A DNA stretch of 58,101 nucleotides from Bacteroidota bacterium (GTDB lineage Bacteria; Bacteroidota; Rhodothermia; Rhodothermales; Bin80): the NCBI GenBank assembly GCA_028875125.1, contig JAPPGC010000018.1:1-58101 (forward strand), in the 5' to 3' direction. Position numbers and translations under genes: made by a program. How positions within the stretch are numbered: position 1 is the stretch's first letter; the number at the start of each line of letters is the position of its first letter. Of the stretch, positions 634 through 56,328 are shown piece by piece. The notes under the pieces were generated by a model. The model searched no databases and was not told the DNA's origin. It saw only the letters and a program-made list of their open reading frames with translations.

Positions 634-1653
634 CTACCGATACAGCAATCTATGCACCACAACGACCGTATCGCGAATTTCATATGCTCTCTCGTCTGTT
701 AATAGTTTAAAAAAACCATCCGGCAACTTCACTGATTCATTATAATTCCCGTTTTCTGCATCATAATAGTCAGCAATCATCTTCATGCGCGGATCCTTAT
801 TATCCCTCACTAACACAACAACTTGATCGTCGTTCACAAACATCGAATAATTCAGCGGAGGTCCGGGCCACCTCATGCCATTCTGCTCGACCATCTCCTC
901 AGGCGGCTCAAACCCAATCGCTCCAATAGTCCTACGGGCGTACTTCACTTCTCCGTTACTGTTGTACCTAATTAGCGCCGGATACAGATCGGGTACGAAA
1001 AGCACATCTTCACCGTAAGCACTCAAATCTCCCGGTATTAGATACTTGTTGCGGACATGCAAGTTTTCGTCCAACAACCTCCCAAACATTAGTGTATCAA
1101 CATTCGAAGAGGTCACAAAGAATTCCCTATATCTGTAGTCCGAAGGTATCAACCAATATTTTCGTCCACTGTTTGTTACGACCATTCTTTTAAAATGCTT
1201 TTCGGGTTCCTCCATTGCCAACAAAGAGCCATCTGGCTCAAAATACGTCAGTCGCCGGTTCATGCTGTCGTATATGAAGACTACCGAATCTCCGATTGTT
1301 CCTAAATTTGCCATTTGCATCACCTCTCCTGGCGCCCACCCCATGCCCAGCCCGTACGTCGTTGTGTGCCGCCCCAAACTATCGAATGCCTTCACACTCA
1401 TGTCTCCGTAATCTCCAACGTATACGTTATTTCCCGGCCCCTTCAATACACTGCCCGGGTTATAGAGCATCATGCTGTCATCAACTGGTAAATAGTGCAA
1501 TGAATCCAGCGTCACATTACGCCACGCACGACTCGTTGCATCTTGTTCGATCAACGGAATTTGAATTTCGACTTGTAGCCGACCAGGCTCCCCGCATCCC
1601 AAAGAACTGATCAACAAAAAGCCAACACTGGCAAGCTTCAATAATGCACTCAT
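634..1653 (-). CDS. 6-bladed beta-propeller lipoprotein
   Basis: Predicted outer-surface or periplasmic lipoprotein of 339 residues. The signal peptide ends in a lipobox (LISSLGC, Cys 20). The body has the repeats of the Bacteroidota-type 6-bladed beta-propeller family: VGDYGDMSVKAFDSLGRH near residues 90-110, then a glycine-rich YGLGMGWAPGEV segment, then blades with YNSNGEVKYARRT. The length and layout match the complete paralogue at 4256-5293. A thioredoxin-like gene lies just upstream (11-bp gap) and a second, shortened propeller gene beyond it, suggesting an operon reading leftward. Propellers of this family are often found with sugar-utilisation or peptide-uptake loci, but their ligand is generally unknown. 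Confidence 0.8.
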   Translation of the reverse strand: MSALLKLASVGFLLISSLGCGEPGRLQVEIQIPLIEQDATSRAWRNVTLDSLHYLPVDDSMMLYNPGSVLKGPGNNVYVGDYGDMSVKAFDSLGRHTTTYGLGMGWAPGEVMQMANLGTIGDSVVFIYDSMNRRLTYFEPDGSLLAMEEPEKHFKRMVVTNSGRKYWLIPSDYRYREFFVTSSNVDTLMFGRLLDENLHVRNKYLIPGDLSAYGEDVLFVPDLYPALIRYNSNGEVKYARRTIGAIGFEPPEEMVEQNGMRWPGPPLNYSMFVNDDQVVVLVRDNKDPRMKMIADYYDAENGNYNESVKLPDGFFKLLTDERAYEIRDTVVVVHRLLYR

Positions 1654-1664
1654 ATCACCACCTT

Positions 1665-2249
1665 CTACTCAAACAGGGTGTTATCAATAAATAATTGCTC
1701 GATTTGGCTTTCCTGTTTTGCATCCAGCATGCCAATCCAATTATGCTGTGCTCTACCCTCACCATCGACAATCAAAATGGTTGGTACATACTCAACATTA
1801 TAGTCAGACACTGGAATGACCATTAACGTATCTACCCGTACTTGATACTTGGCTAGCACGTGCTCTTGAAGTCGGCGGGATTGACTAGTATCAATAACTG
1901 CCATAAAAGCGAGCCGCCTATTCACTTGGCTGCCTTTCAATGTTTTCTGAAGTGTTTTTTAAAATGGTATAGACTGAATGCAGTAAGGGCAACTTGGCGT
2001 AAGGGCCAGAACCACCGCACCATCATGCTTATCCCAGTCTTCAAATAATTTGACTTCTCCTACTTTCTGTGTATCTGCTGTAGTATCAAGATCACTTTCC
2101 TTCCAGTCGGTAAAGACCGCGAACACAAGAAACACAATAATAGCTAGCAACAATGTGCTGTGGGCAACGATTTCCAATTTACCCATAGATTTAAGCGTGC
2201 GTCTGCAATTCGCAAATAATGATTTGATTATATAATCCATCAAAAACAT
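1665..2249 (-). pseudogene. Membrane-anchored thioredoxin-like protein with in-frame stop
   Basis: One reading frame is interrupted by TAA at 1959-1961. The N-terminal part has a membrane segment (about residues 26-47, HSTLLLAIIVFLVFAVF) and then the start of a thioredoxin fold with the redox motif SCPYC followed by IQSIPF. After the stop the same frame continues (KTLQKTLKGSQVN) through the second half of the fold, with VPTILIVDGEGRAQHNWIGML, the normal cis-Pro strand region. Because there is no frame change, one substitution (for example TAT or AAA to TAA) explains the break. Intact, it would be a TlpA/ResA-like envelope disulfide reductase partner. Its start overlaps the end of the upstream propeller gene by 10 bp, consistent with co-transcription. 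Confidence 0.75.
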
Positions 2250-2932
2250 TGTGGGTGTTTGATAGGCGGCTCTTCTATGTGGCTAGACAAATCGTGCCTG
2301 TAAACTGTCACTGTAGTGTCTCTATCGGCGGCAATTCGTTTTGCAGATAAAGTGATATGTCCAATGAACGGTATCTTCACTGATCCGATATAGTGTCCGG
2401 TCGCAATACTATAAGCATCAATGGCACGCTCACCATTTGGACGTACATTTATTAACAGCCAACCATTGACCACATTTGTTCCGTAATGCATTATGCTGGA
2501 GAGCGGAGCAAAATATACCGGTGCATCTTTACCCGACATTCGAGTCTCTATTTGTGCTTTTCCGGTTTCATAGGCCGTCATGGTACGTCGTGCATACAGC
2601 AAACTGCCGGTTGAATCATACACTGCAAACATTGGATAATATGCGGACGCAAGTGTCATGCAGTTCCCGTATGTGTGAATCCATCCCTCATTTCGCAGGG
2701 CTGTTGCAAAGTCACCTTGATTTTCGAAGACCTTGCCAAAGCGTCGCCTGCCCGTGTCGGTTACAACTGTAAATAGCGATTCTGACTCCAAATAGAAATA
2801 GTATGAAATACCGGACTCGGTGCGTGCTTGGCGAAGCGGGTTATCGAGTTGTTGCTTTGCCCAAAAGCGATTGGTTTGGGTTTCGAAGGTATATTCAAAA
2901 AAATGGCTCTTCGGCCAAAATCTATGACTCAT
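2240..2932 (-). CDS. N-terminally truncated propeller paralogue
   Basis: A 230-residue frame without a signal peptide. Its middle and end align by eye with the C-terminal two-thirds of the propeller lipoprotein at 634-1653: compare AVYDSTGSLLYARRT here with RYNSNGEVKYARRT there, and the closing RDTTVTVYRHDL with RDTVVVVHRLLYR. The first roughly 110-140 residues of the family (signal, lipobox, first blades) are missing. The upstream side is the IS110 remnant, with a 13-bp repeat in between, so the front of the gene was probably lost with the insertion. The listed ATG may not be a functional start. Confidence 0.55.
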   Translation of the reverse strand: MSHRFWPKSHFFEYTFETQTNRFWAKQQLDNPLRQARTESGISYYFYLESESLFTVVTDTGRRRFGKVFENQGDFATALRNEGWIHTYGNCMTLASAYYPMFAVYDSTGSLLYARRTMTAYETGKAQIETRMSGKDAPVYFAPLSSIMHYGTNVVNGWLLINVRPNGERAIDAYSIATGHYIGSVKIPFIGHITLSAKRIAADRDTTVTVYRHDLSSHIEEPPIKHPQCF

Positions 2933-2940
2933 CTCACAAT

Positions 2941-2953
2941 TAAGGCCGAAGCC
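2941..2953. repeat. Direct repeat left of IS110 remnant
   Basis: The 13-mer taaggccgaagcc occurs here and again at 4256-4268, on the two sides of the IS110 remnant. The match extends imperfectly with ctcaca on the outer side. In the right copy it encodes the last codons of the intact propeller gene (RLRP plus stop). Confidence 0.6.
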
Positions 2954-2989
2954 CCCTTTTTGTTACATTGATTAGAAGTTCTTGCAGGT

Positions 2990-4113
2990 TCATTTCTCAG
3001 GAACAGGTTGCATGGCCTCCCATAGGAAGCCGACCAGTTCGCGGGCAATTGCGACCACGGCAACGTTCGGTGGTCTGCGTTTGGTCAAGGATAGGTACCG
3101 CTTGTATAAGCGCTTTTGTGCTCGTTGACTGATCTGCACAACTCGTGCACCGCAGTGCTGTTGACGTTTCTGGAGAGATACCGTGACGCGAGGAAGGTAA
3201 ATATACCTCCACGCTGAACCGACCAGGGCTTTGCGAGTAAGTGAACTTCCCGTCTTTGTGATCCCGCCCTGACGGATCGTTCTCCCGGATGAATGCTGGG
3301 AAGGAATCAGTCCCAAGTACGCCATCAACGCCATTAGATGTTCAAATCGGCTAAAATCGGCAATTTCAGTCATCAGTTACATGGCCGTCATCAATCCAAT
3401 CCCTGGGAATTCCTGAAGGATCTGAACTGATTCCAAAAATCTGGGAAGCGCAGCGGTACGTTTAATCCGACGCTCCGTTTCTTGAGTCCTAGCCTGGATG
3501 TACGCAATCTCCTCCAAATGGCTCTGCAGTAAATACGCTTCGTTCGGCTCGTCCAACTTGATCTGATTGATCCAGATCATGAACCTCTGTGTCCAGTAGC
3601 CACCCGATGTATAAATCTTCCCGCGGCAGACAATAGATTCATCACGCGCATTATCGTCCGGTGAATATTCTGAATCAACCCCGTACGACTGCGTACCAAG
3701 CTCCGAGCTGCTTCAAATTCCTGATCTGGAATGAAACACTCCCTCAACAGACCCGCCGCAAAGTACTCCGCCAGCTTCCTTGCATCTCGTTGATCGTTTT
3801 TAATTCGATCACTACTGCGCCGAGGAACAGATCCCGGTGCGATCACCGCACAATCTATCCCGCGCGCGGTAAGATCCTTGTATAAAATATAGCCGCAGAA
3901 TGAGGCCTCGTAACAAGCACGAAATCCGCCGAACCTCCGACGGACAAGGTCCACGAAGCGCGTCAACTTAATCGGCGTCTGAGCGCAAAACTCCGTTTCG
4001 TAACAGGGACGACGTGCTACTGAATCGTAAACGTGGGCCGCGATCATGTCGCGGTGAACGTCTAAACCAACAAAGTAGCGCGTCGGTTTGGGTGGAGTAG
4101 ATAGTGCGTGCAT
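2990..4113 (-). pseudogene. IS110-family transposase, broken
   Basis: The N-terminal part (4113 down to about 3590) is the RuvC-like DEDD domain of IS110 transposases: FVGLDVHRDMIAAHV, CYEASFCGY, and the DQRDARKLAEYF signature. A one-base shift near 3588 moves to another frame (WINQIKLDEPNEAYLL). A TAA at 3374-3376 then interrupts the C-terminal transposase_20 domain inside FPGIGLMTAM / LMTEIADFSRF, which continues in the same frame with YLGLIPSQHSSG and ITKTGSSLTRKALV. With one frameshift and one stop, it cannot make active enzyme. IS110 elements lack obvious terminal repeats; element ends are placed roughly at 2956-4250, where a short direct repeat flanks it. Confidence 0.85.
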
Positions 4114-4255
4114 ATAGGATGAGATTTGGTGAGACCCCAACAGAATAAGCCCCGGCAGAGTCACCTGTCATCCTATTATATCTACACTAATTCCGAGGCA
4201 ATCTTGTCTCATTTTTATCGGCACACACCGCGACGCTCAATGGCCCACTCACAGG

Positions 4256-4268: not shown

Positions 4269-5293
4269 CGTAGTACTGTCCCTAGAGTATCCGAGAGGGC
4301 AAAGAAATAGTCGCCTGCAAGGTCCATGGACCGCCATCGACCCGGTACCTCAAACGAATAGTCGTAAGAGCCGTCGTCAGCGGAGTATACATCAATGACT
4401 GTGGCTTCCCGCTCGCGGGACAATGGAAGAGAGTCCATGTACAGCTTTCCGTTGGAATACGCCAGGGAGCTTTTCGCCGCGACGCTCACCCCACGCCGAA
4501 ACATCGTTGGCCAACCTTCCATGTTGTATGGTACCACCTCCGGGGGATCCACCTGATCCAAGGTTTCCCGCGCATAGACGACTTCACCTGAATCCGAAAA
4601 GCGTGCAATAAATCCGAAATACAACGGACTGTAAACCAGATCATTGTCAACCTTGGTGATCTCACCGCCGAGAACGAGACTGTGTAGATCGGACGTTCCA
4701 AAGGTGAAAAGCGGCTTGCCCGGTGCATCGGCAATGCCAAACAAACGGCCGTCCGCATTGTAACCCATCGGCATAAAGTAGTAGCGCCCATCTTCCGTCA
4801 GAGTCATGCGGAACGGCTGGAAATCCAGTTTGTTGGTCTCCAGCAGGTCTCCCCTTGGTCCAAATCGGAAAACCGCGAGGCGATTGGCGTCGGGGACCAC
4901 AACATTTCCCGCCTCGTCAATGGAAGGGGCCATCGGATTTTGGAACTCGCCGGGACCTTCTCCTTGTCCCTGCCCATACGTCCCAACGAGCTGCCCAGCC
5001 ACATTAAATCTCTTAATCAGGAAGTCACCGTAATCCGATATGTAGCTCCCGCCGTCTACGCGGCCGCTAATGATCAGCGGATTGTAGAGAAGGTGGTCGT
5101 CTGACATGCCAAGAATAGCAACAGTGTCTACGTCGATTTCTTTCCATTCGCGGGAGGTTGACCGCTGCCCGTAAATCGCAAAGTGAAACCCCTCTATCTG
5201 GCTGAGTGCTAACTTCTCTTCAAGCTGCTCCTCCGGGTTGCAGGCGCTGAGCGTGACAAGGAGGGCTAAAGCTATTCTGGCAATTGCACGCAT
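4256..5293 (-). CDS. 6-bladed beta-propeller lipoprotein
   Basis: Complete member of the propeller family (345 residues from the chosen start). The open frame extends further upstream to 5365, but the ATG at 5293 gives a clean lipoprotein signal (MRAIARIALALLVTLSAC, lipobox LSAC). Blade motifs include SYISDYGDFLIKRFNVAGQ, YGQGQGEGPGEFQNP, VVPDANRLAVFRF and RFSDSGEVVYARETL, which match the paralogue at 634-1653. Probable cell-envelope protein; the bound ligand is unknown. It is the only one of the three tandem paralogues lying upstream of the IS110 remnant, and likely led the original cluster. Confidence 0.82.
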   Translation of the reverse strand: MRAIARIALALLVTLSACNPEEQLEEKLALSQIEGFHFAIYGQRSTSREWKEIDVDTVAILGMSDDHLLYNPLIISGRVDGGSYISDYGDFLIKRFNVAGQLVGTYGQGQGEGPGEFQNPMAPSIDEAGNVVVPDANRLAVFRFGPRGDLLETNKLDFQPFRMTLTEDGRYYFMPMGYNADGRLFGIADAPGKPLFTFGTSDLHSLVLGGEITKVDNDLVYSPLYFGFIARFSDSGEVVYARETLDQVDPPEVVPYNMEGWPTMFRRGVSVAAKSSLAYSNGKLYMDSLPLSREREATVIDVYSADDGSYDYSFEVPGRWRSMDLAGDYFFALSDTLGTVLRLRP

Positions 5294-5460
5294 GGGCTTT
5301 GATGGCGATTGTGGTACGCCATACGTAGTTGGTGAAGGGCCTTCGCAGTAGCGTGGAATTGGCATTAAAATGTACTGTGTAACCTATGTGCGATTGTAGG
5401 GCCCCTCGTAGCTTCGAAAGATGCTCCGCCTGGGGAATCCGTCGCAAGTTACGAAGGGAT

Positions 5461-5510
5461 TGTGTATTGAGATGAATCTCACTAGGTGGGCAAATTCATC
5501 TCAATACACA
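5461..5510. repeat. Perfect 17-bp inverted repeat
   Basis: tgtgtattgagatgaat at 5461-5477 is the exact reverse complement of 5494-5510, with a 16-bp spacer. It can form a strong hairpin. The right arm overlaps the stop codon of the transposase fragment at 5501-5683. It may be a paired insertion-sequence end, a small non-autonomous element, or a transcription terminator for the minus-strand fragment. Confidence 0.75.
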
Positions 5511-5683
5511 GCCACCCCCGCTCTCAAAATCTCGAAAATCTCCACTCGCGTCTTTTCCTTCTTGTAAATCGAAAGCAACCCGCGCAATACCGCCGGAATG
5601 TCATCCCGGCTACGGGCATCAAGCTTGATCTCTTCAATCGGTACCTGCCCAAACTCTCGTTGGGCTTCCATTACTACACGCAT
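5501..5683 (-). pseudogene. Transposase N-terminal fragment (ISNCY-like)
   Basis: Sixty codons resembling the N-terminus of ISNCY-type transposases: REFGQVPIEEIKLDARSRDD, then IPAVLRGLLSIY, then REIF-like VEIFEIL. Intact members are several hundred residues long; here the frame stops inside the inverted repeat at 5494-5510. Only the start survives, so it is a remnant. The family call rests on memory of the consensus and is moderate. Confidence 0.5.
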
Positions 5684-6507
5684 GGCAACAAATGGGCGAA
5701 TGTGCAGGCTTAAACGCCCAAATCAGACCCCTTACCCTCATATTACCGCCAGATTCGCAAATTCATCACTTCCCCTAATCTGACGGCTCCTACGCGATGA
5801 CCACCCCAAATACGCGCTAAATCCTGACAAAACCCGCCAGAAACAACCCAATCTGTCCCCATATGCCCGAATTCATTGTATAATCCCATGACCAATATCA
5901 TTTTCTTTCAAGCACTGGTTAATAACAGCAGTAAGACAACAATGCTCAGGTTTCTTTTCATCACGGTTAGGAAGCGAGATTTAAGGTATTTCTTGGTTCT
6001 ATAAGACTTGGTTGATGGGTTTAACACAAGATTGCGCGGCAACATACAACACGGCAATCTTATTTCAAAATAAACTGTGAAGAACGGAGCCAACTGCCAT
6101 CGACAGATCCGCTGACAAGATAGGAACGCTTCAAATTATTTTTCTGTCAATTGTGCTCCTTACAAGTTATATAATAGGAAATACTCATTACATTAATGTT
6201 AACTCATGCTGGCTTGTGTCTTTGGGCCAGAGCATTAAAAAATCATAGTCGCTTTATCGGCTTGCGCACAGCGTTAGACCAGATGTTTCTTTCATAACCA
6301 GCCGACACGTGCAGGTCTGGTATGTCTTCCTTTTCCAACCACTTAACCCCGACCTCTGAACCCAACCTCGCCAAATTCCATGGCGAAGTTGTGCTAAGCG
6401 ATTATATTCGTGAGATCTCAGTTGAAGGGTATGAGGACCGGTTTTTGAAAACGATCGCAAGGGGGCGCTTGGCGCATGATCCCTGTGAGACAGATTCCAG
6501 ACAGAAA
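5684..6507. other. Remnant intergenic region
   Basis: No intact gene is recognised. At 5908-5961 (minus) a short frame encodes a signal-peptide-like start (MKRNLSIVVLLLLLTSA) that stops at once, as if a lipoprotein gene had lost its body. Between 6260 and 6390 (minus) there is a coding-looking run (KWLEKEDIPDLHVSAGYERN) without a start, ending at TGA near 6250. A plus-strand frame at 6322-6516 lies opposite it. Which of these was real cannot be decided by eye. Confidence 0.4.
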
Positions 6508-7950
6508 TCAGGATAAAACGATCTCCCTGCGCAGCCGGGCAACGGGCAGGCCCAGTTGTACTCGGTATTTTGATACAGTACGCCTGGCTATTCTGTATCC
6601 TTTCTCCTTTAGGATGGCTGTAATAGCCTGATCCGTCAGTGGGTCTGTCTTGTCCTCTTGTTCAATAATACCGGAAATAATCGCTCTGACTTCCTTGTTT
6701 GACACATCAACACCGGACGCCGTAGCAACCCCCTCGGAGAAAAAGTATTTGAGTTCGTAGACGCCAAAATCGCATTGAACATACTTTCCACTCACAACAC
6801 GACTGATCGTCGAAATGTCCATGTCAAGCCGCTTGGCAATATCCTTAAGAATTAGCGGACGCAGGTACCCCTCCCCCAAGGTGAAGAACGCTTCCTGAAA
6901 AGCGACAATCTCACGCATGACGGAGAGCATGGTTTGGCGGCGTTGCTGGACTGCATCAATGAACCACTTTGCCGACTCAAGCTTGGAGCGGAGAAATTGC
7001 TTCGTTTTCACATCCGATTTCTTGTTTGAGCCGGTTTGCCGATCAGCGGACATCTTTTCAATCATCTCTCTGTACGGTTTGGAAACCGCAAGCGTTGGAA
7101 AGTTGCCGGAGTTAAGCTGAATGACAAACGTGCCGTTAGTATTGCGAACTAGAAAATCAGGAGTCACATAGTTTTCCTGTGGTGTGAACGTGCCCTCACC
7201 AGGTTTGGGATTGCACGATTGGATGAGGTCTATGGCAGATTTGAGAACGGCATCATTAATACTCAGGCGTTCTTTTATGCGTTCGTACTGTCTTCGGGCG
7301 AAGGGCTTAAACAGATTGCCGACCATCTGGAGAGCAATATCGCGACCTGGGGTATCTTCCGGGATCAATTCCAGCTGGATTAGCAGACATTCCTGCACAC
7401 TGCGTGCCGCAATTCCGGGTGGATCAAGATGCTGGATAAGGCGCAACACGCGAATCACATCTTCATCTGTCAGTTCCTCGCGGTAATTGAAGGTGATATC
7501 ATCTACGATTGAGGGTATTTCTCTTCGCAGGTAGCCATCCTCGTCAATGGAGCCTATGATTTGCTCTGCGATGAGTGTGTCTCGTCGATCAAGGTTCAAG
7601 AATTTTTTCTGCCCGCGAAGATGATCAGTCAGAGTTTCGCCAGCCGCAAGTGGGATCTCCCGGTCTACCTGATTATGGTCTACGCGGGCCTTGTATCCGT
7701 ACAGATCGTTTGCATCCGGTAGCAGATCTTCCAGGTCAAATTCTTCGTCATTGGTGCTGTCAGCGGATTCTTCCTCCGGCCCAGATGATATCTCGTCGGG
7801 CGATCCCTCTTCGAGCAGTGGGTTATCCACCAGTTCCTGCTGAATGCGCTGTTCCAGTGCAAGCGTTGGTAACTGCAGCAGCTGGATATACTGAATCTGC
7901 TGCGGGGACAGTTTCTGCTGTAGCCTTAATTCTTGACTCAGGTTCAGCAT
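6508..7950 (-). CDS. rpoN: RNA polymerase sigma-54 factor
   Basis: A 480-residue sigma-54. The activator-interacting region I is clear at the start (LRLQQKLSPQQIQYIQLLQLP, then LEQRIQQELVDNPLLE), followed by an acidic region II, the core-binding domain (about 115-310, including LDPPGIAARSVQECLLIQL), the helix-turn-helix part (LKDIAKRLDMDISTISRVVS), and the RpoN box ARRTVSKYR at about 455-463 near the C-terminus. It directs core polymerase to -24/-12 promoters and needs AAA+ activators, none of which are in this window. It is divergent from ruvB, with about 150 bp between them that must hold both promoters. Length and motifs are complete. Confidence 0.95.
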   Translation of the reverse strand: MLNLSQELRLQQKLSPQQIQYIQLLQLPTLALEQRIQQELVDNPLLEEGSPDEISSGPEEESADSTNDEEFDLEDLLPDANDLYGYKARVDHNQVDREIPLAAGETLTDHLRGQKKFLNLDRRDTLIAEQIIGSIDEDGYLRREIPSIVDDITFNYREELTDEDVIRVLRLIQHLDPPGIAARSVQECLLIQLELIPEDTPGRDIALQMVGNLFKPFARRQYERIKERLSINDAVLKSAIDLIQSCNPKPGEGTFTPQENYVTPDFLVRNTNGTFVIQLNSGNFPTLAVSKPYREMIEKMSADRQTGSNKKSDVKTKQFLRSKLESAKWFIDAVQQRRQTMLSVMREIVAFQEAFFTLGEGYLRPLILKDIAKRLDMDISTISRVVSGKYVQCDFGVYELKYFFSEGVATASGVDVSNKEVRAIISGIIEQEDKTDPLTDQAITAILKEKGYRIARRTVSKYRVQLGLPVARLRREIVLS

Positions 7951-46090: not shown

Positions 46091-49000
46091 ATGCTGATGC
46101 CTAAACCAAGAGAAGTTTACGACGATCCATCGAGCTATGAGGAGTTTCTAACTGAAAGTTCCGACGACCTATTTGAAGGTCAGCATTTTGAACGTAAAGA
46201 GATTCGCAGGGGAAGCAGTAAAGACTTACAATCACACCTAAATAAGGTGCGAGATGGAATAATCAAGACAATCTCGGCTTTCGCCAACACCAATGCTGAA
46301 GGAGGGTTACTTGTTCTTGGTATTGCTTCTGATGGTACCATCTCTGGAATCGATCATCTCTCGGAAGAGCAGATAAACAGCCTGACCAATTTCAACTCAC
46401 TGCTCCATTATCAAACAGCAGAAGGCAAACCTCACGAATGCGTTGACAATTTAGGCAACAGAAAAACAATCTTCCTAATTTTCGCCCCTTATTCAGAAAC
46501 TGGTATTTGTGAAACTCTAGGACAAAACCCTGATGCCTGGTGCAGAAGAGTATCTCAAAGCATCTATGCAACTCAAGAGATGCGTGACCGGATAAGAACT
46601 AACAAAGGGCTGCTGGACTCTGAGAACAATCCCTGCTGCGAATTCAATCCCGATGACATAGACGAAGACATTCTAAGAGAATTCCGACGCGTATTTCACC
46701 CTAAATCAGCAGCAGAGTTTAGCAATGAGCGTCTTCTTCGTGAGGCTGGGGCCATAATTGAGCTAGACGGAAAATACTGGTTTACTCATCCGGGGCTCCT
46801 GTTTTTCGGAGCTAATCCACAGATGATAATTCCGTCATCATATATCAGATTGTTGCGGTTTGAAGTTCCTTCCAGTATGTTCAAGGAAAGGGGGCTACCG
46901 ACTCATGATCAAAGTTTTACAGGCCCGCTTACAAAGCAGATCCGAGATACCCGTATATTCTTCAGAAAATCAGGCTTCTTCAAGCGCTATCTGAAGAGAA
47001 AAACGGGAGGGGGCTTCACAGTGGAGCCAGAATTTCCTCCCACAGCAATTGATGAAGCAATAGTCAATGCAGTTGCCCATCGCGATTACAGGACCAAAAA
47101 ATCGATTGAATGCGAGGCGTACCCTGACGCCTTTATTGTAAAAAACCCAGGACGAATTCTTCAACGCAACAGGGATCTTCCAGATAAGTTTTCACTTTCC
47201 GACACAGTTCTCGACTCGACGCCCAGAAACGCCAAATTGCTTGGGTGGCTCCAGATCATGAAAGATTCTGACGGCGCTGAATATGTCCAGGCTATCAGCG
47301 AGGGCACAAGACAGATGCTGCGTGAAATGACAGCCCTCAACCTTCCGGCGCCGGAATACAGTCTGGGAGGACATGAAACTCTTCTTAAGCTTGAAAACAA
47401 TTCCGCTGAACGCGAGGCGGCAATTCGTGCCGCAAGCCAAATAAAATCCACAGAATTCGCAAACCTTTTTCCGTTGAGCATTAGACTCGGGGACAGCCCA
47501 GTTGCCCATAAAGTACTCAGTGCTCATTACCGGGAATTTTTAAGGACATTCCGGGATGTCTTGGAAGGAAACGGCTGGTATATAGACAGGTTCGGGTTCA
47601 GTCGTATAGTGGCGCACAGACGAGGCATTAAACTTGACGCCCCTTCTGATGTCAAGGATATACTACAGTTTCACCCTGCCTACGAGTTTCAGATCCGGCA
47701 ATACCTAGAATATTTTTATCTGTGTCTTGACTACAAGTGCCAAGTACACAACGTTCAGCGTCTTAGCGTTATCGGCAAACATTTTGAAAAAGACAAACTG
47801 ACAAACCGCTTTTGTATCGTAAAAGATGTTGGCTGGAGGAAGGGGAAAATCGTGGATTTCAGTTCGGAGTTCGCCAAAATATTCTTTTTCGATACGAAAT
47901 CAGAACGGCGGGTCATGGTAGATTCGGTGATACCAGATTGCTCGCTGGAAATGCTGAAGATCTCTCTTCAGAAAACAAGGATTTCGTTTGATCTCTACCA
48001 GGCCATCAGAAAACACAGTCTTGCCTCAAAGAGAGGTTCAGCCAGGGACAGAATTGACAAAATGGAGAACATGATTGGTTATATCGCCAACACTTTGTTT
48101 CCAATTCAATTCGGTGACATGCTTGTTGATGCTACCACGGAACCCCTGCGACTCATTGAACATGGAGAAGTCACGCAGAACACTTTCCTAGTTAGTCGAT
48201 TGTCCGAACCGAAAGTAATGTTCCGGGATTCTCGCTCGTCTCCCAATGTTCGTACTGGCATTACGGAATACGGAGCCTATGATAGCACGGAACATGAAAT
48301 TGAGATTATACCGGTTTGCCTCAGTTCAATGGCCAACAACATGAAGGGGTTGATCAAACGCCTGCAATTCGGAAAATTCAGATACCGAGGGGCTGAACGT
48401 ACGTTCACAACGAAATTTTCTTACCCGTGGATTGTGGAGATAGACCGCGTCGAAGATGCCGAAGAGGAAATCAGTCGCCTGCTAGAGGAGCATCCAGACT
48501 GGAACGGCAACACCGATCTGGATCGGATTTTCCTTGTTCACGTTCCAGAGCAGGCCTACGCGAAGGATGACCATACCTCTCCCTATTACCACATCAAGCG
48601 GCTCCTGCTAGAAAGAGGCGTGCCTTGCCAGATGGTTAATACTCCGACACTCGAAGACCCTGACTGGAAGGATTTGAACTTGGCGCTTAACATCGTAGCG
48701 AAATGTGGCGTAAGGCCATGGGTGCTACCGGATGAAATCCCTGATGCGGACTTTTTTGTCGGGCTTTCATACACCCAATCAAGAGACGGTCAGCGAATCA
48801 TGGGATTCGCCAACGTATTTAACAGTTACGGAAAATGGGAATTCTATTCCGGCGATACATCTTATTTTGACTTTGAAAAGCGAACTTACCACATGGCTCA
48901 ATTGGTCGAAAAGACGCTGTCAAAGTTGAAAAATAAACTTTCTCCCACGTCTCAGATTTCATTTCATTATTCCTCCAAGCTGTCAGGTTCAGACCGGGAT

Positions 49001-49459
49001 TCGATAGTGAAAGTAGCACGCGAGATAATACCGGAAGGAACTTTCACTTTCGTATGGGTCAACTCTCATCACAACGTGAGATTCTATGATAATCGGCCGG
49101 AAACGGACGGCAGTCTGCGTCGCGGAAGTTACGTGGAGGTCGCAAAAAACAAAATCTACTTGTCAACAACCGGCTACAACGCGTTTCGTCAAGCTCTAGG
49201 GTCGCCAAAACCACTGGAGATTTCAAAGTGGGTCGAACGGCCCGAGGGATCGCTTGAAGAAAGACCGGATCTTCGTGTTCTTGCGGTTCAGATATTAAAC
49301 CTGACGAAACTGAACTGGGCCTCAACAGATTCTTTCTGCGGAGAACCCATTACTTTGAAGTATGCGGGTAATATTGCTTACCTGACCGCGGCCTTCCTGC
49401 GTCAATCAGGACCATTCATTCTTCATCCTGTGCTCGAAAAAACCCCCTGGTTTATCTGA
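46091..49459 (+). CDS. Schlafen AlbA_2-HATPase-Argonaute fusion protein
   Basis: One frame of about 1122 residues (ATG 46091; a TTG at 46070 would give 1129, used for numbering). Residues 35-165 are a Schlafen AlbA_2 domain: HFERKEIRRGSSKDL, KTISAFANTNAEGGLLVLGI and SDGTISGI. Residues 200-425 are the HATPase_c_4-type partner region, with PPTAIDEAIVNAVAHRDY (323-340) and the closing RQMLREMTALNLPAPEY. Residues about 450-1129 are Argonaute: N/L1 region (YLEYFYLCLDYKCQVHN), PAZ/L2 region, MID (810-885) with YYHIK, GVPCQMV and NIVAKCG matching the 5-prime-phosphate pocket, and PIWI (890-1129) with ILNLTKLNWASTD and PITLKYAGNIAYL. The first catalytic Asp is replaced (FVGLSY), so slicing is unlikely. 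Probable guide-directed defence protein with an AlbA_2 effector; stands alone. Confidence 0.88.
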   Translation: MLMPKPREVYDDPSSYEEFLTESSDDLFEGQHFERKEIRRGSSKDLQSHLNKVRDGIIKTISAFANTNAEGGLLVLGIASDGTISGIDHLSEEQINSLTNFNSLLHYQTAEGKPHECVDNLGNRKTIFLIFAPYSETGICETLGQNPDAWCRRVSQSIYATQEMRDRIRTNKGLLDSENNPCCEFNPDDIDEDILREFRRVFHPKSAAEFSNERLLREAGAIIELDGKYWFTHPGLLFFGANPQMIIPSSYIRLLRFEVPSSMFKERGLPTHDQSFTGPLTKQIRDTRIFFRKSGFFKRYLKRKTGGGFTVEPEFPPTAIDEAIVNAVAHRDYRTKKSIECEAYPDAFIVKNPGRILQRNRDLPDKFSLSDTVLDSTPRNAKLLGWLQIMKDSDGAEYVQAISEGTRQMLREMTALNLPAPEYSLGGHETLLKLENNSAEREAAIRAASQIKSTEFANLFPLSIRLGDSPVAHKVLSAHYREFLRTFRDVLEGNGWYIDRFGFSRIVAHRRGIKLDAPSDVKDILQFHPAYEFQIRQYLEYFYLCLDYKCQVHNVQRLSVIGKHFEKDKLTNRFCIVKDVGWRKGKIVDFSSEFAKIFFFDTKSERRVMVDSVIPDCSLEMLKISLQKTRISFDLYQAIRKHSLASKRGSARDRIDKMENMIGYIANTLFPIQFGDMLVDATTEPLRLIEHGEVTQNTFLVSRLSEPKVMFRDSRSSPNVRTGITEYGAYDSTEHEIEIIPVCLSSMANNMKGLIKRLQFGKFRYRGAERTFTTKFSYPWIVEIDRVEDAEEEISRLLEEHPDWNGNTDLDRIFLVHVPEQAYAKDDHTSPYYHIKRLLLERGVPCQMVNTPTLEDPDWKDLNLALNIVAKCGVRPWVLPDEIPDADFFVGLSYTQSRDGQRIMGFANVFNSYGKWEFYSGDTSYFDFEKRTYHMAQLVEKTLSKLKNKLSPTSQISFHYSSKLSGSDRDSIVKVAREIIPEGTFTFVWVNSHHNVRFYDNRPETDGSLRRGSYVEVAKNKIYLSTTGYNAFRQALGSPKPLEISKWVERPEGSLEERPDLRVLAVQILNLTKLNWASTDSFCGEPITLKYAGNIAYLTAAFLRQSGPFILHPVLEKTPWFI

Positions 49460-49730: not shown

Positions 49731-52166
49731 CTAATTATCGTCCATTTGCTCTTGACCGTGAGAAGACTTCCCACCCGTCAAACTAAATGCTTCCTGTCGC
49801 TTGAAAGTATAGATTGCTTGATTTAATATCTGAGTATTGAATACACCAAGTTTACAGAGTGCATCAAAGTCTTTGATTTTTAGTCCAGTGACCTTTGTAA
49901 AAAGAGCTGGCTCCACGTTACGAATCACATCCACTAGGCTCTCCTCTCTGTAGTCAGTCAGGTACATAAAAATGGGGACTCTAGTGAGGAGCTTCAAGAG
50001 AGCTTCCCGGATTTCTTTTCGACGATTTTTCATCTCCCTTTCCTCTTTACTCACTGTGGATTTCTTACTTCCCCCTACCTTCGCTTTTTTTACTGACTTT
50101 TCCAAGGTCAATATTTCCGATGTGTGCGTACGCAGCGCACGAAAGGCTTCCATGCTCTCCAGTGATTGCAAGAATTCTTCGTTGTTGAGGATTCCCTCCA
50201 ATACAGCTCGGTTCAGATTGACCAGACTAGATGACTGCCAACGCTTCGCCAACATGGCGGAACCAATACCCGAGGTTGCCATCTCCATCAGATTTGTTGC
50301 GTCGAGTTTAACCAATTTCCCGTCATCGTATGCGAGGATGGGGAGAAAATTCAGGAATTCACGTACCTCAGAGCTTGGATTCCCCTCACCTTTCGCGTTG
50401 GCCTGTTTTGCACAAAATCCATACACCATCTCCAACGCACGGTATTGAGCAAAATCGAATATATAAGCGACCGGCTTGACAATCTCTTCCTTATTTGGAC
50501 CATCGGCGGTTGTGTGTGTCCAAGGCGACTGAACCCGGAATGCGGCCTGAAAATAAGTTTCGGCCGATTTTGTATCCCGAAGCATAAAAATCACTCCCCA
50601 TTGAGGTACGGTGACACCTGTCAATAACTTGCCACACGTTAACGTAATGGTTTTCGTCCGCGAACCATCGCCAATTGCATTTCGTACGGGATCCAGCGCT
50701 TTGAGCCCTATACCTGCTTTTGCTCCAGCAGCACACACGACTGTGAACTCTTTGTAAAAAGGATTCTGGGGTGCATTAAGGAGCCTCTCCATTGCTCTAC
50801 ACGATGCTACGTCGGGAAGATGCCATACCGTATGATGTAAGCAAGTGCGAAGTTGGGGGTCGGCATAAGGGCCTGGATTATTCTGTTGCTCCGTAATCGA
50901 AACCGGCTTGTGGAGCCAATCTAACCACCTCTGTACCTCGCTTTCCTTACTGAATCTCGGGAGTCGATCCCGAACCTTCGCTTCAAAGAAACCGTTTAGA
51001 CTGAACTCATCATCAAACCCAGACTCCGCATAAGACCGAGTTGCATCGCTGATCTTATACGTGAACATCTTCAGCTGTGGCAAAGATTGGTAGGGGTTCG
51101 GTTCCCCCCTTTCTCCTTTCCAAGTTCGCTTAGCATTCTGCTCATCGGCATACGTCCAATTGTAGATCTGATCTTCACTGAATTCCCCCTCCGCCAAGGC
51201 CCGAAATGGGGTGCCTGATAGATAGAGTCGATGCCCAGTTGTGAGTTTCTCAAAATCCTCACTGGATGATGAGGCCGATCCATAGTTGTATAACAGACTT
51301 GCTTCTTCATCCGAATCGTCGGATGCATACAGCTCTTTTGGGCCGCTTCGCCAAGCACCAAAATGATACTCGTCAATGATAATACAATCCCATTCATTTA
51401 CGAATACCAACTCAAGGCGGTCTTTTATCTCTATCCCCCCTTTTGCGTTTCTCCACATGATGTCCTGAAAAGACACCAACCAAGCGTATGGGAACGATTC
51501 ATCAATGTCCTCAAAGCGTTCTCCCTTTCCAATAAATTGCCATCCCTGAAAATCTTGATGACGCTCCAAATCCTTCCTCCAGGAATCTTCAACTGCAGGC
51601 TTGTAGGTGAGGATCAGCAGCTTCGTCCAGCCCATCTCAAGAGCCAATTGGTATGACGCAAATGTCTTTCCAAATCGCATTTTTGCATTCCAGAGAAAAT
51701 GTTTGGCCTTATCCTCTTCCTGCCCCCGGTAGTAGGCAGCTGTTTGCTCCACGGCTCTTCGCTGCTCAGGACGCATTTTAAAACTGTACAGCGCGGTGAC
51801 TCTACGCCCCTGTTTTACTTCAGCAATCGCAATTTTGAGTTCATCCAATGTGACCTCAAACCATTCATTATGGACTTGATGCCCACCATTCGCTACGAGT
51901 TGTTTATGTACGTCACTATCTCTGAACGGAACACCATGATCTGTTATAGCATTTTCTTCCCACAATATCCTCACCTGACCCGGAACACTAGAACTCGTTT
52001 GTTCCTTGATGCGCTTGCGTACATCGCCGGTGGTAAATCCAACTTTCATCCATCCAGATCCACCACTGCGGTATTCCCATGTATTCTCACAATACTCACC
52101 GTAGGTGTATGCGTAAATCTTTGGGACCCCTCTCGTCCCCGACTGTTCTTTGCTACCTCTTCCCAT
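49731..52166 (-). CDS. GIY-YIG / SF2 helicase restriction subunit
   Basis: An 811-residue protein. Residues 15-110 are a T5orf172/GIY-YIG-type nuclease domain: KIYAYTYGEYC, GWMKVGFTTGDVRKRI and EWFEVTLDEL. Then a superfamily 2 translocase: NAKMRFGKTFASYQ (Walker A, GKT at 166-168), TYKPAVEDSWRKDL, DEYHFGAWR (motif II at about 265), LSGTPFRAL (motif III) and TLTCGKLLTGVTVPQW with AAFRVQSPW (motifs V/VI). C-terminal helical region rich in Lys. The layout is that of a restriction subunit that works with Eco57I-type methylases, whose genes lie upstream on the same strand. It probably translocates on unmodified DNA and cuts with the GIY-YIG domain. A conserved GIY-YIG Arg/Glu pair should be checked. 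Confidence 0.85.
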   Translation of the reverse strand: MGRGSKEQSGTRGVPKIYAYTYGEYCENTWEYRSGGSGWMKVGFTTGDVRKRIKEQTSSSVPGQVRILWEENAITDHGVPFRDSDVHKQLVANGGHQVHNEWFEVTLDELKIAIAEVKQGRRVTALYSFKMRPEQRRAVEQTAAYYRGQEEDKAKHFLWNAKMRFGKTFASYQLALEMGWTKLLILTYKPAVEDSWRKDLERHQDFQGWQFIGKGERFEDIDESFPYAWLVSFQDIMWRNAKGGIEIKDRLELVFVNEWDCIIIDEYHFGAWRSGPKELYASDDSDEEASLLYNYGSASSSSEDFEKLTTGHRLYLSGTPFRALAEGEFSEDQIYNWTYADEQNAKRTWKGERGEPNPYQSLPQLKMFTYKISDATRSYAESGFDDEFSLNGFFEAKVRDRLPRFSKESEVQRWLDWLHKPVSITEQQNNPGPYADPQLRTCLHHTVWHLPDVASCRAMERLLNAPQNPFYKEFTVVCAAGAKAGIGLKALDPVRNAIGDGSRTKTITLTCGKLLTGVTVPQWGVIFMLRDTKSAETYFQAAFRVQSPWTHTTADGPNKEEIVKPVAYIFDFAQYRALEMVYGFCAKQANAKGEGNPSSEVREFLNFLPILAYDDGKLVKLDATNLMEMATSGIGSAMLAKRWQSSSLVNLNRAVLEGILNNEEFLQSLESMEAFRALRTHTSEILTLEKSVKKAKVGGSKKSTVSKEEREMKNRRKEIREALLKLLTRVPIFMYLTDYREESLVDVIRNVEPALFTKVTGLKIKDFDALCKLGVFNTQILNQAIYTFKRQEAFSLTGGKSSHGQEQMDDN

Positions 52167-52308
52167 TGCCGAAAAACCGAGTATTCAAAATCAATATGTA
52201 TCTCAAAGAAAGCATTACGATCTCAATCCTGCTTGATGCGACCACATATCCACCCCTATAGTGAGTTGAAAATTGTTTTTGCTTATGTCTCGATTACTGA
52301 TGAAAATG

Positions 52309-53832
52309 TCAGCTGATAGGCTTAATCTTGCTTTCGATATGCTCTATTTCGGTACTGTCAAGCTCAAAGAGATCGCATAAGATCTCATCCGTCCAATTCT
52401 GGTCCATGGGAAGGAGCGGGGCAAACTCAAAACAAGGTCGAGAAACGTTGTGTGTTGGAGTTTTCAGAGATACGAGGAATCGAAAAAACTTGGACTTTAC
52501 ATAATCCAAAAGCCGTCCTGCCGGTTCGTGCTGGCTGAATAGATCAACGACGAGATATGTTTCCGTAATTGCACTTCCAGTGGGGATCACTCGTGGCTTA
52601 CTAAGCACATGGCGAAGACCTTGCTTGTCAGCTTTCCCACCCTGAGGATTTGTTTTTGAGACGATAACCTTCCAGTGATCAATGGTGGCCGCGTTTTTGG
52701 TAATTGCGTCTCTGGGGATATACTTATCACCCTCTTTGGTCACTAAGAGTATGTTCTGTATAGAATTGGGCTCATCAGTGACTGACGATGGTAATTGATG
52801 GGCTTGGAGTCCGTAGAAGTTTCTGGGACGCACAACAGAACTCATAGACTTCCATCCATGCTTTTTTGATATTCTTTGTACTTTTTCAAGTATTGCAACA
52901 TCTTTGCTATCCCGCACAAATACTTCATGTGCATCTAGCCTCCGACGCGTTGCTCCTTTTGTTTCTCCATTAGGCATGACCAAGCAATTCCCTTGATGAT
53001 ACTTGTCTCGTACAAATGAACAAACTCCTCCGGCGATATCAACATCTGGAAATACATCACGCGATTGCGGAAAATCTGCCAGTAGTGCGATTTGCGAATC
53101 CGATAGCATCCTCCGCCGAAAGTCATCCAGCCCTTTACCACCTGCATACCACCGGGCAGGAATTACAAAGGTCAGTAGCTCTGGCTCAAGCGCTTTCGCC
53201 TTATCGACAAATCGATTGTAAAGCGGGATAGCACTCTTTCCCGTACCTCCCCCATCCTGCATCTGATAAGGGGGATTGCCTATGATTGCATTTACCTGCA
53301 TGTTATCTTCTCCAAATATTTCACTTAAATCCATGTGGAGGAAGGGATGAATGTGTGCCTCACGCCCTTCTGCAACCCGCGCATTTTTCTCACGGGCTCC
53401 ACAATAAATACATCTCCCACCCTTCCATTCACATCGCGCTTCGGGAAAGCGAATATTGCCTTCCTGATCATCAAACTTAATTATGCTGTGTGTTTCCAGA
53501 GTTGCATCCTTACACTGGTACAAGGTACGACGCGAAATCAATCCCGTTAGCTCAGAAATCGCTATTCCATACACCATATTCCGATAGATGTGTTCAAGGC
53601 GGTCCTTGTAATCGGGGATCTCCGATTTTAGGCCGTCCATTAATCGCTGCGCCACCTGGTACAGAAAAACGCCGCTCTTGGTGCAGGGATCAAGCCATTT
53701 GAGTGACGGGTTTCGCCAAACCCGATCGGGTAAACGATCCAGCATCCCTTTGGCAATTGAGGGCGGCGTGAAAACCTCGTCACTGGATAAATTCGCGAGG
53801 CACTCAAGTATGTCAGGCCGGTGCTTTCTCAG
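52309..53832 (-). CDS. Eco57I-type N6-adenine DNA methyltransferase
   Basis: About 507 residues if translation starts at CTG 53832, which overlaps the previous stop as CTGA. I chose this because the family start (here LRKHRPDILECLANL, SSDEVFTPPSIAKGMLD) carries the conserved VFTPP motif X, and the first ATG (53745) would cut it off. SAM motif I is LDPCTKSGVFL, the catalytic motif is GNPPY (IIGNPPYQMQDGGGTGKS, then LYNRFVDKA), and there is a zinc-ribbon-like CEWKGGRCIYCG. The C-half is a probable target-recognition region. It methylates adenine to protect host sites from the helicase-nuclease at 49731-52166. A 142-bp gap separates the two genes. Confidence 0.88.
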   Translation of the reverse strand: MRKHRPDILECLANLSSDEVFTPPSIAKGMLDRLPDRVWRNPSLKWLDPCTKSGVFLYQVAQRLMDGLKSEIPDYKDRLEHIYRNMVYGIAISELTGLISRRTLYQCKDATLETHSIIKFDDQEGNIRFPEARCEWKGGRCIYCGAREKNARVAEGREAHIHPFLHMDLSEIFGEDNMQVNAIIGNPPYQMQDGGGTGKSAIPLYNRFVDKAKALEPELLTFVIPARWYAGGKGLDDFRRRMLSDSQIALLADFPQSRDVFPDVDIAGGVCSFVRDKYHQGNCLVMPNGETKGATRRRLDAHEVFVRDSKDVAILEKVQRISKKHGWKSMSSVVRPRNFYGLQAHQLPSSVTDEPNSIQNILLVTKEGDKYIPRDAITKNAATIDHWKVIVSKTNPQGGKADKQGLRHVLSKPRVIPTGSAITETYLVVDLFSQHEPAGRLLDYVKSKFFRFLVSLKTPTHNVSRPCFEFAPLLPMDQNWTDEILCDLFELDSTEIEHIESKIKPIS

Positions 53833-54778
53833 TTTTCACTACCAGCAGCAATTACACTCCAGTGCGCTGGAGGCAAGATTTCGGACGGTTCTATAATCTG
53901 TTCAAAGAGTGTTCCTTTCTGACGGTGTTTCGAACAAATCACTTCCGCAGGCCAGACCTTTCGCTCGAAGGAATGTTCGGTGTGCGGTATCCATTCTACC
54001 AGAGAATAGTTTTCAGACAAAAAATCACCAACAACAATATTCGTTTGAAGAATAAACTTTACTGCTCGATTGAAATCGAAATCAGGCTCACTACCGATTA
54101 CCGCCTCATATGCCTTGAAAACAATGGTCGCCATGCGCTCGAGTGCCTCCTCAGCCGTGTCGGCATTGATATCTATACCATATAGTTTCGATAGTGCCCG
54201 CATGCAGTCGAATTCATATTGTTCACAATCCAATGAGTCCCCAAAGAGTTTTGCAGCGGTCACCAATTTGCGTCTAAGTGCCTCGGTCAGGAATTGACCA
54301 CTCCCACAAGAAGGATCAAGCACGGACTTGTCTAAGTCTGCGACAGGATCACCGCGTAGATAATCCAACATCTGCTTCACGAGCCAATTCGGCGTGAAGA
54401 CTTCGCCGTAATGATCGACGCGATTGGTATCACGTACAAGTACGGGGAAATCATCCTCCACGAGAGCGGTCTCTAGATACTTGCTCACCCGATCCCGAAT
54501 CTCCTCAGCTCTCGATTGTTCACGAGTGGCTTGAGGCGAATCCTTGGTCAATGTCGCCTCAGGGTGGATTGTGTCAAAAAGAGGAGCCTCCATGCTTAGC
54601 AAAATATCCGACCAACACTCCAATAAGAACCGGCTGGGCTCAAGGAGCAGGTCCCAGATATACAACTCCAATCTAAACAACTAACAAGATAGACCTGGAA
54701 GGCAAAGAAAACCTGCTTCATTGCGTCCCGAGATACCACGTGACCTCTTTGTGAAAGTTGCTTGATTGCCGTGATCAT
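53829..54778 (-). pseudogene. Second N6-methylase-like gene, N-terminal frameshift
   Basis: The main frame (from about 54680) has LYIWDLLLEPSRFLLECWSD, motif X-like GEVFTPNWLVKQML, SAM motif I LDPSCGSGQFLTEAL, and the acidic GIDINADTAEEALERM. I see no NPPY catalytic motif, unlike its neighbour. Upstream, a different frame beginning at ATG 54778 encodes a matching N-terminus (MITAIKQLSQRGHVVSRDAM, KQVFFAFQVYLV) that runs into the main frame near 54685, so one indel seems to break the gene. A shorter product from ATG 54593 remains possible. Such methylase-like partners accompany GIY-YIG/helicase plus Eco57I systems; this one may bind SAM without catalysing. It is coupled (CTGA) to the next gene. 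Confidence 0.7.
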
Positions 54779-55377: not shown

Positions 55378-56328
55378 CTAAAGCACTGTTTTCAATTTGT
55401 CCTCTTTGCCTGTCTCCCACACAATGTGATTGTGTTGTTGAGTATCGAAATGCACCTTCTTTAAAATTGCCTTTTTGCAAGTAGAAATAACTTCAAGCCC
55501 CATTCCATCGGCGTATCCCGCTTCGTAATAGACACTTCCGCGCACCCCCGGTCTTCCGTGCGTATAGTTGACTACAACGAAACGAGCTTCGCGTATTTCG
55601 CTGATGATTTGATTGACAATCAATCCCACGAATTGCTGTTCCTTGACCAGCACCGGTTCGTAGCCCAATTCCTCAATGGCAGGTTTGATGCCTTTTTTCC
55701 ACACATTTTCGGTAGACTCGTGATACCACATGACTAAGAGCACCCGATCGGAGGCTAGGTTAACCCCTTCTTTATCGGTCGGGTGACTCAGTTTAGGATT
55801 GTTGTTATTCCGAAGGCGGGCTGGGGTAGTCAAATCAACGTCAGCATCCTCGTTCAAGAGATCTTCAACGAGTGGAATCAGCGACTCAATTACCATCCGC
55901 GCCTCATGAGTGGATGCGAGATTCCCAGCGATATCGGTAGTCTCAATCATTTCCAGTCGCGCGATGGATTCGTGGGGAAGAAAAGGTCTCTCCAAGGATC
56001 TGAAACGGACGACCCATCCGGCAACTGTAATCCCTAGAAGATAGACACCATCGGGATCATCAATATTTACGAAAAGGTCTCTGGTTTTGATCTCGTCACA
56101 GAGTTCCCTCAGTGCTATCTTCTGAGCCTTCTGCAAAAACATTATTAGAAGGGGCTTGTTTAGGGTAATTATTTTGGCACCAACTATAAGCGCGAAGACA
56201 TTGATCGAGGCATCGTGAACGAGAGTCTGAATGCCCCCAAAGCGAGAGTGTTTATGAAGGATGCCTTCCGCACTGGTGCTACACCCGACGCCGGTATCGC
56301 CATTACAATAACTTTCTACCAACGTCAA
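55378..56328 (-). CDS. NDT/TIR-like effector-type protein
   Basis: A 316-residue frame; the true start is uncertain (ATG 56142, at residue 63, is an alternative). Residues about 195-316 are a nucleoside 2-deoxyribosyltransferase/TIR-like domain: VLLVMWYHESTENVWKKGI, KPAIEELGYEP, EIREARFVVVNYTHGRPGVR and GSVYYEAGYADGMGLEV with candidate catalytic Glu 269, then KVHFDTQQHNHIVW. The N-half (LYLLGITVAGW-like stretch near 95-107) looks like a winged-helix or regulatory part. The frame stops at TAG 55378, but the same frame continues for 17 codons with the usual end of the domain (NRTIKLMGHGP) to TAA 55324, so an amber stop trims the C-terminus. Related domains cleave nucleosides or NAD in anti-phage systems. 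Confidence 0.72.
   Translation of the reverse strand: MTLVESYCNGDTGVGCSTSAEGILHKHSRFGGIQTLVHDASINVFALIVGAKIITLNKPLLIMFLQKAQKIALRELCDEIKTRDLFVNIDDPDGVYLLGITVAGWVVRFRSLERPFLPHESIARLEMIETTDIAGNLASTHEARMVIESLIPLVEDLLNEDADVDLTTPARLRNNNNPKLSHPTDKEGVNLASDRVLLVMWYHESTENVWKKGIKPAIEELGYEPVLVKEQQFVGLIVNQIISEIREARFVVVNYTHGRPGVRGSVYYEAGYADGMGLEVISTCKKAILKKVHFDTQQHNHIVWETGKEDKLKTVL

Follow-up and report, generated by a model that had tools for sequence, protein, structure and literature searches.

A rare fusion of a Schlafen AlbA_2/HATPase-like module with a prokaryotic Argonaute of predicted inactive PIWI, found on mobile DNA

Results

One unbroken frame from AlbA_2 to PIWI

The window analysed here, a 58,101-nucleotide stretch from a Bacteroidota bacterium, carries on its forward strand a Schlafen-pAgo fusion gene (46091..49459) encoding a protein of 1,122 amino acids. 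Candidate starts are TTG 46070, ATG 46091 and ATG 46097, and the frame runs without an internal stop from TTG 46070 or ATG 46091 to the stop at 49459. The PADLOC profile PDLC02394 covers residues 3-1122, that is, the protein from end to end, with 1,602 bits. The joining of AlbA_2, a HATPase_c_4/GHKL-like region and an Argonaute in one chain is a real and rare architecture that occurs on mobile DNA. Such an unbroken frame had been proposed in a sequence-only reading of the window, and the open frame, the Pfam matches, PDLC02394 and the AF2/Foldseek results all bear it out.

A modelled Schlafen core with an incomplete active site

The Schlafen AlbA_2 domain (46163..46585, + strand, residues 25-165) is matched by Pfam PF04326 (SLFN_AlbA_2) at residues 29-96 with E=1.1e-8. 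It is followed by a linker or helical region and a GHKL-like HATPase_c_4 domain (46586..47410, + strand, residues 166-440), assigned by Pfam PF13749 and Foldseek. The PF13749 match (E=3e-4, residues 338-429) falls under the curated cut-off of 26 bits in the window protein and exceeds it in three homologues (L008, L043 and L108, 30.0-30.8 bits). An AF2 model of residues 1-440, built from 23 sequences, has a mean pLDDT of 88.8. Its best Foldseek match in the PDB is DIP2311 (3LMM, E=9e-20), with the core domains of SLFN11, SLFN12, SLFN5, SLFN13 and SLFN14 at 5e-5 to 8e-4 and the GHKL domains of histidine kinases (HK853/VanS CA) weaker, at 6e-3 and beyond. Judged from this model, AlbA_2 and HATPase_c_4 are genuine folds within residues 1-440, and the Schlafen core fold is present.

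The HATPase region contains the invariants E322, N326, H330-R331-D332, P353-G354 and E404-G405-T406. The sole signs of a GHKL ATPase are the putative N-box-like E322-x3-N326 and the likeness of fold; the G1-like motif reads NPG and lacks the usual D. ATP binding is predicted at most.

Is the AlbA_2 domain a nuclease? The active site of SLFN13 consists of E205, E210 and D248, of which the two glutamates are essential, E205 and E210 mutants being fully inactive (PMC5862951). This three-carboxylate E-E-D site is incomplete here. E29, E34, R35 and K36 are kept in the window protein, E29 and K36 are invariant in the fusion family and either E or D occupies position 34 throughout, but the third acid is gone, its position being occupied by A79/S80. 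When positions 79 and 80 are equated with SLFN D248 through the 'G[IV]-x-x' motif rather than by superposition of structures, an acid is found at one or the other in 0/7 fusion members, as opposed to 26/26 stand-alone AlbA_2 proteins recovered in the genome search; phage AlbA_2 proteins are mixed at these positions. Its loss throughout the fusion family and its retention in the stand-alone proteins make nuclease activity doubtful: it is possible but unproven, and constitutes the main doubt about the mechanism proposed below. The invariant D25 could replace the missing acid.

Stand-alone AlbA_2-HATPase_c_4 proteins are strongly expanded in the genus and family of the window (G001-G014), with up to at least seven matches per genome.

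A predicted guide-binding, non-slicing Argonaute

The remainder of the chain, also on the + strand, comprises an Argonaute N-terminal half with N, L1, a reduced PAZ* and L2 (47438..48190, residues ~450-700, beginning at EFANLFPL), a MID domain (48191..48745, residues ~701-885) and a PIWI* domain predicted to be inactive (48746..49456, residues 886-1122). A Pfam search of the window protein gave no PIWI match, whereas the PADLOC pAgo profiles do match. PDLC02436 aligns to residues 702-1106 at 1e-76, and the class II pAgo profile scores 2.6e-34 versus 4e-24 for class I. The sequence-only reading had named the lack of a MID/PIWI match at residues 800-1129 as its refutation; the pAgo profiles align over ~700-1106 and answer that test. 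A profile search of the PDB with the family alignment returned RsAgo first (1.4e-13) and, behind it, SPARTA Agos, Aquifex Ago and CpAgo.

In alignment with RsAgo, MID residues Y832, K836, Q847 and K871 coincide with the YK-type 5'-phosphate pocket, whose RsAgo residues we take to be Y463, K467, Q478 and K506, and all four are invariant in the six complete family members. The PIWI catalytic positions, identified by alignment to CpAgo and RsAgo, are substituted in all six: the CpAgo catalytic acids align with S893 and S962 (S or A in the family), and the YA[D/H] position is G1093 (G, S or K). From these substitutions the PIWI active site is predicted to be dead. Together with the intact MID pocket, this predicts an Argonaute that binds guides and does not slice. 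With a PIWI that cannot slice, the fused N-terminus has to supply the output.

Between L1 and L2 (~residues 555-640) a full PAZ would not fit; the space accommodates a reduced PAZ* at most. The alignment of the class II (long-B) profile begins at residues 582-605; AF2 pLDDT is mostly 60-83 over residues 460-690, with small-barrel-like strands at 574-615 of low-to-moderate confidence; and hhalign of this half against long-B N-halves reaches a P of only 0.02. The full-length AF2 model, made with five homologues, has a pLDDT of 43.9, and only the 1-440 model is relied on. A reduced PAZ* between L1 and L2, weakly supported here, would fit the long-B pattern; most long-B pAgos are described as having PAZ* in the text of Ryazansky et al. 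2018 (PMC6299218). The earlier description of a complete Argonaute is accurate in the long-B sense only, the reduced PAZ* being weakly supported.

Tree placement

The MID-PIWI regions of seven fusion family members form one clade (100/99), and L086, an Argonaute from Adhaeribacter, branches as its sister (98/95). In the unrooted tree the fusion clade together with L086 sits on the path from the RsAgo/BPAN-type core to the short plus long-A pAgos (branch 92/82), outside the RsAgo core (100/96); the references are few, long-A and SPARTA being represented by a single fragment each, and the tree contains several long branches. The family is likely a deep long-B pAgo, the class to which the text of Ryazansky et al. 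2018 (PMC6299218) assigns AlbA_2-fused pAgos. Membership of the short pAgos with APAZ was rejected, as these form their own clade (100/99) that excludes the fusion family.

The sister Argonaute itself (L086 2987-6816, NZ_CP055152.1, an Adhaeribacter radiodurans plasmid) carries an N-terminal topoisomerase-type zinc ribbon. A gene of 504 amino acids, without Pfam or PADLOC match, overlaps it downstream and is a possible undescribed pAgo effector.

Homologues, distribution and selection

The same architecture, for which the sequence-only reading had proposed to search other genomes, is found full length in MAGs, on a plasmid and on a prophage-like contig. Full-length homologues occur in a Rhodothermales MAG (L005, 77% identity), a Bacteroidetes MAG (L006, 64%) and a Gammaproteobacteria MAG (L008, 44%), and a further homologue of 75% identity (L007) is interrupted by a contig end. 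WP_200805567.1, on plasmid 3 of Rubrobacter radiotolerans RSPS-4 (a closed isolate record), is 50% identical over its whole length. Viral contigs searched with the full-length alignment yielded nothing; the N-terminal alignment as query recovered two fused copies, an intact one of 45% identity on the prophage-like IMG/VR contig IMGVR_UViG_3300035010_000006 (G543) and one that is interrupted at residue ~825, close to the contig end, on a second viral contig (G542).

Four of the 10 genomes searched in the window's genus carry the fusion (G000, G003, G005 and G006). No further full-length copies were found among 395 genomes of the phylum, nor any beyond those already known in two further sets, of 369 and 297 genomes, around L008 and L009. 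Across phyla the fusion is rare and its occurrence patchy.

Selection was estimated by NG86 on the window gene against L005, L007 and L006, dS against the last being near saturation. On this basis, AlbA_2 is the fastest-evolving part (dN/dS 0.19-0.38); the other values are 0.14-0.26 (HATPase region), 0.17-0.20 (N-PAZ*) and 0.07-0.14 (MID-PIWI). Purifying selection acts throughout, and neither half is decaying.

In Candidatus Binatia (L009 8001-9464, OX638322.1), a copy of 487 amino acids lacks residues ~41-697 through a deletion that keeps the frame. The first ~40 residues and the entire MID-PIWI are retained, at 74% identity; either the protein was naturally reduced to a short pAgo or the deletion arose in assembly.

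Genomic context

Downstream of the fusion lie restriction-modification genes on the opposite strand (49731..54680, -), identified by Pfam and PADLOC; they are context only and are not conserved with the fusion. The first encodes T5orf172 with a type III/IIG-like helicase (49731-52166, -). An Eco57I-type methylase follows in two frames (52309-53745 and 53829-54680, -), with the SAM motif in one and NPPY in the other; this is probably one frameshifted gene beside the T5orf172-helicase restriction protein. At ~46 kb of the window, where the fusion and then the restriction-modification genes start, GC content declines from 0.53 to 0.44. Further along, at 55378-56328, a protein of 316 amino acids without Pfam match weakly resembles a TIR effector according to PADLOC (3e-6).

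Elsewhere the neighbours are SIR2, HATPase and OLD-like genes (L005), a restriction methylase and a transposase (L006), an ATPase (L008) and, for the R. radiotolerans plasmid copy, toxin-antitoxin genes and an adjoining Tn3 transposase. On the IMG/VR contig (L108/L111), the fusion gene occupies 750-4121 and a large serine integrase 4581-6512, 460 bp away, and the contig also carries a tail tape-measure gene; this copy is a probable prophage-borne Argonaute.

No separate effector gene follows the window pAgo, as the next gene is on the opposite strand. Since the neighbours differ between homologues, no conserved partner gene is required. With the GC drop and the plasmid and phage copies, these differing neighbours indicate that the fusion behaves as a stand-alone, mobile and probably defensive gene.

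Discussion

Relation to described systems

The fusion architecture is not new. In its main text, the survey of Ryazansky et al. 2018 (PMC6299218) reports AlbA_2 fused to several long-B pAgos and annotates it as DNA-binding; together with the full-length PADLOC-DB model PDLC02394, this shows that fusions of this kind were already catalogued. The best match of that model is WP_200805567.1 of R. radiotolerans (1,973 bits), and the domain order, full-length alignment, sequence and tree place the window protein in the same family. A 2023 review adds that long pAgos may be fused to Schlafen-like ATPases. A literature search for Schlafen with pAgo found the fusion only in PMC6299218 and this review, with no functional study of any member. 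The earlier judgement that this is not a characterised system is therefore true of function; the fusion itself had been reported in 2018 and has a PADLOC-DB model. Our analysis adds to that catalogue the GHKL-like second domain, the missing third carboxylate, the family-wide intact MID pocket and the prophage copy.

Where the effector of a long-B pAgo is a separate nuclease, SIR2 or membrane protein, the system acts by abortive infection, and BPAN recognizes DNA with an RNA guide (Song et al. 2023, PMC10620215, where Schlafen is not mentioned). In common with BPAN, BPAS and BPAM, the fusion has an Argonaute of predicted dead PIWI with a YK-type MID pocket, perhaps also a reduced PAZ, and what would be an associated effector. 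It differs in that the Schlafen module is fused, whereas theirs is a downstream nuclease, SIR2 or transmembrane gene, and, as regards BPAN, in that its MID-PIWI clade falls outside the RsAgo/BPAN core. Fused SIR2-APAZ-pAgos of the short clade (L045, L046) likewise carry an effector and a dead Argonaute in one chain of ~1,050-1,120 amino acids, but the effector is another one, the MID-PIWI clades are separate and, for the fusion described here, the class I profile scores below class II. Finally, residues 1-440 share their fold and the E-x4-E/D-x-K motif with DIP2311 (3LMM) and the SLFN11/13 cores, from which the protein differs in its fused Argonaute and the loss of the third active-site acid.

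Two related loci were seen in the genomes searched. Both the fusion (L006) and a pAgo of BPAN type accompanied by a DpnII-like nuclease (L050 4499-7827) are present in G006, which would allow the two to be compared in one host. In G017, an operon-like locus (L044 2962-8968) contains an AlbA_2-HATPase gene, HsdS, a 254-amino-acid protein resembling an Ago N-half, a MID-PIWI and an Aga_HEPN gene. We read this locus as a long-B system that is split (AfAgo-like) and possibly in decay, and rejected it as a two-gene version of the fusion, given the HsdS between the AlbA_2 gene and the Ago pieces and an in-frame TAG in the MID-PIWI.

A guide-gated Schlafen module?

Why would an Argonaute that probably cannot slice be fused to a Schlafen module? 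The reading we favour, although we credit it with only about an even chance, is that of a single-chain immune protein of long-B pAgo type, in which guide-directed target binding would license the fused Schlafen module. MID would bind a short guide by its 5'-phosphate, and the guide would pair with nucleic acid of the invader; the examples of RsAgo and BPAN suggest an RNA guide and a DNA target. As PIWI would be unable to cut, target pairing would shift the conformation of the Argonaute half and thereby release or activate the AlbA_2/HATPase-like module. The activated module would attack or bind cellular or invader nucleic acid, and growth would be arrested or the invader blocked. For the steps past guide binding this model borrows from BPAN/BPAS and Schlafen biochemistry, and guide and target type, activation, effector chemistry and immune role are all inferred.

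The pairing of guide recognition with a Schlafen effector, already suggested in the sequence-only reading, is reasonable given the predicted dead PIWI, the intact MID pocket, the lack of a conserved partner gene and purifying selection along the chain; the word nuclease is weakened by the third carboxylate being absent in every member. The immune reading draws on the restriction-modification neighbourhood and the plasmid and prophage-like copies, and on the analogy with dead long-B pAgos, which with separate effectors cause abortive infection upon RNA-guided DNA recognition; a BPAN-type system, with its DpnII-type nuclease, also occurs in the window's genus. A narrower proposal, which we consider unlikely, is that the dead Argonaute would gate a two-acid Schlafen site (E29, E/D34, K36, perhaps D25), with GHKL-like gating, and would serve plasmids and prophages against competitors.

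It is possible, if on the unlikely side, that AlbA_2 is a nucleic-acid-binding platform rather than a nuclease, and that the fusion silences or sequesters its target and leaves the cell alive, as RsAgo acts by itself in a heterologous host. The third carboxylate missing from all fusion members, the DNA-binding annotation of AlbA_2 in the main text of Ryazansky et al. 2018 (PMC6299218) and the suppression of plasmid expression by RsAgo without catalysis of its own (background cited in PMC10620215) all point this way. Yet the invariant E29 and K36 and the acidic position 34 correspond to pivotal SLFN13 residues, not obviously needed for pure binding, and the invariant D25 could serve as an acid.

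Alternatively, the biochemistry may be the same and the beneficiary the carrying mobile element, through inter-element competition or superinfection exclusion. The copies beside the Tn3 transposase and near the phage-contig integrase, as well as the rare and patchy spread across phyla, would suit this, but the window copy lies on a 58-kb contig with metabolic and restriction genes of chromosomal type and no phage genes among those checked, and we consider such a role rather unlikely. It is quite improbable that guide production, guide loading or its regulation is the task of the Schlafen/HATPase module, in place of acting as effector: the family has no separate guide-generating partner and an RNase-like domain could trim transcripts, but no such domain is needed for guide loading in RsAgo and BPAN and, with a dead PIWI, the system would have no output. 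There is next to no probability that the gene is a decayed fusion or a chimera of misassembly, an error that the sequence-only reading had allowed for, for although the window comes from a MAG of 129 contigs, the same unbroken frame in independent assemblies (44-77%) and a closed isolate plasmid rules out the chimera, and every part of the gene has a dN/dS well under 1.

If the single-chain, guide-licensed reading holds, what would it mean? Dead prokaryotic Argonautes need an effector, and to our knowledge those described are nucleases, SIR2/TIR NADases and membrane proteins. With sensor and effector in one chain of ~1,120 residues, guide gating is testable with one protein and point mutants. 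Human Schlafen members cleave tRNA and restrict viruses, and a Schlafen module as effector would link Argonaute immunity to the Schlafen family.
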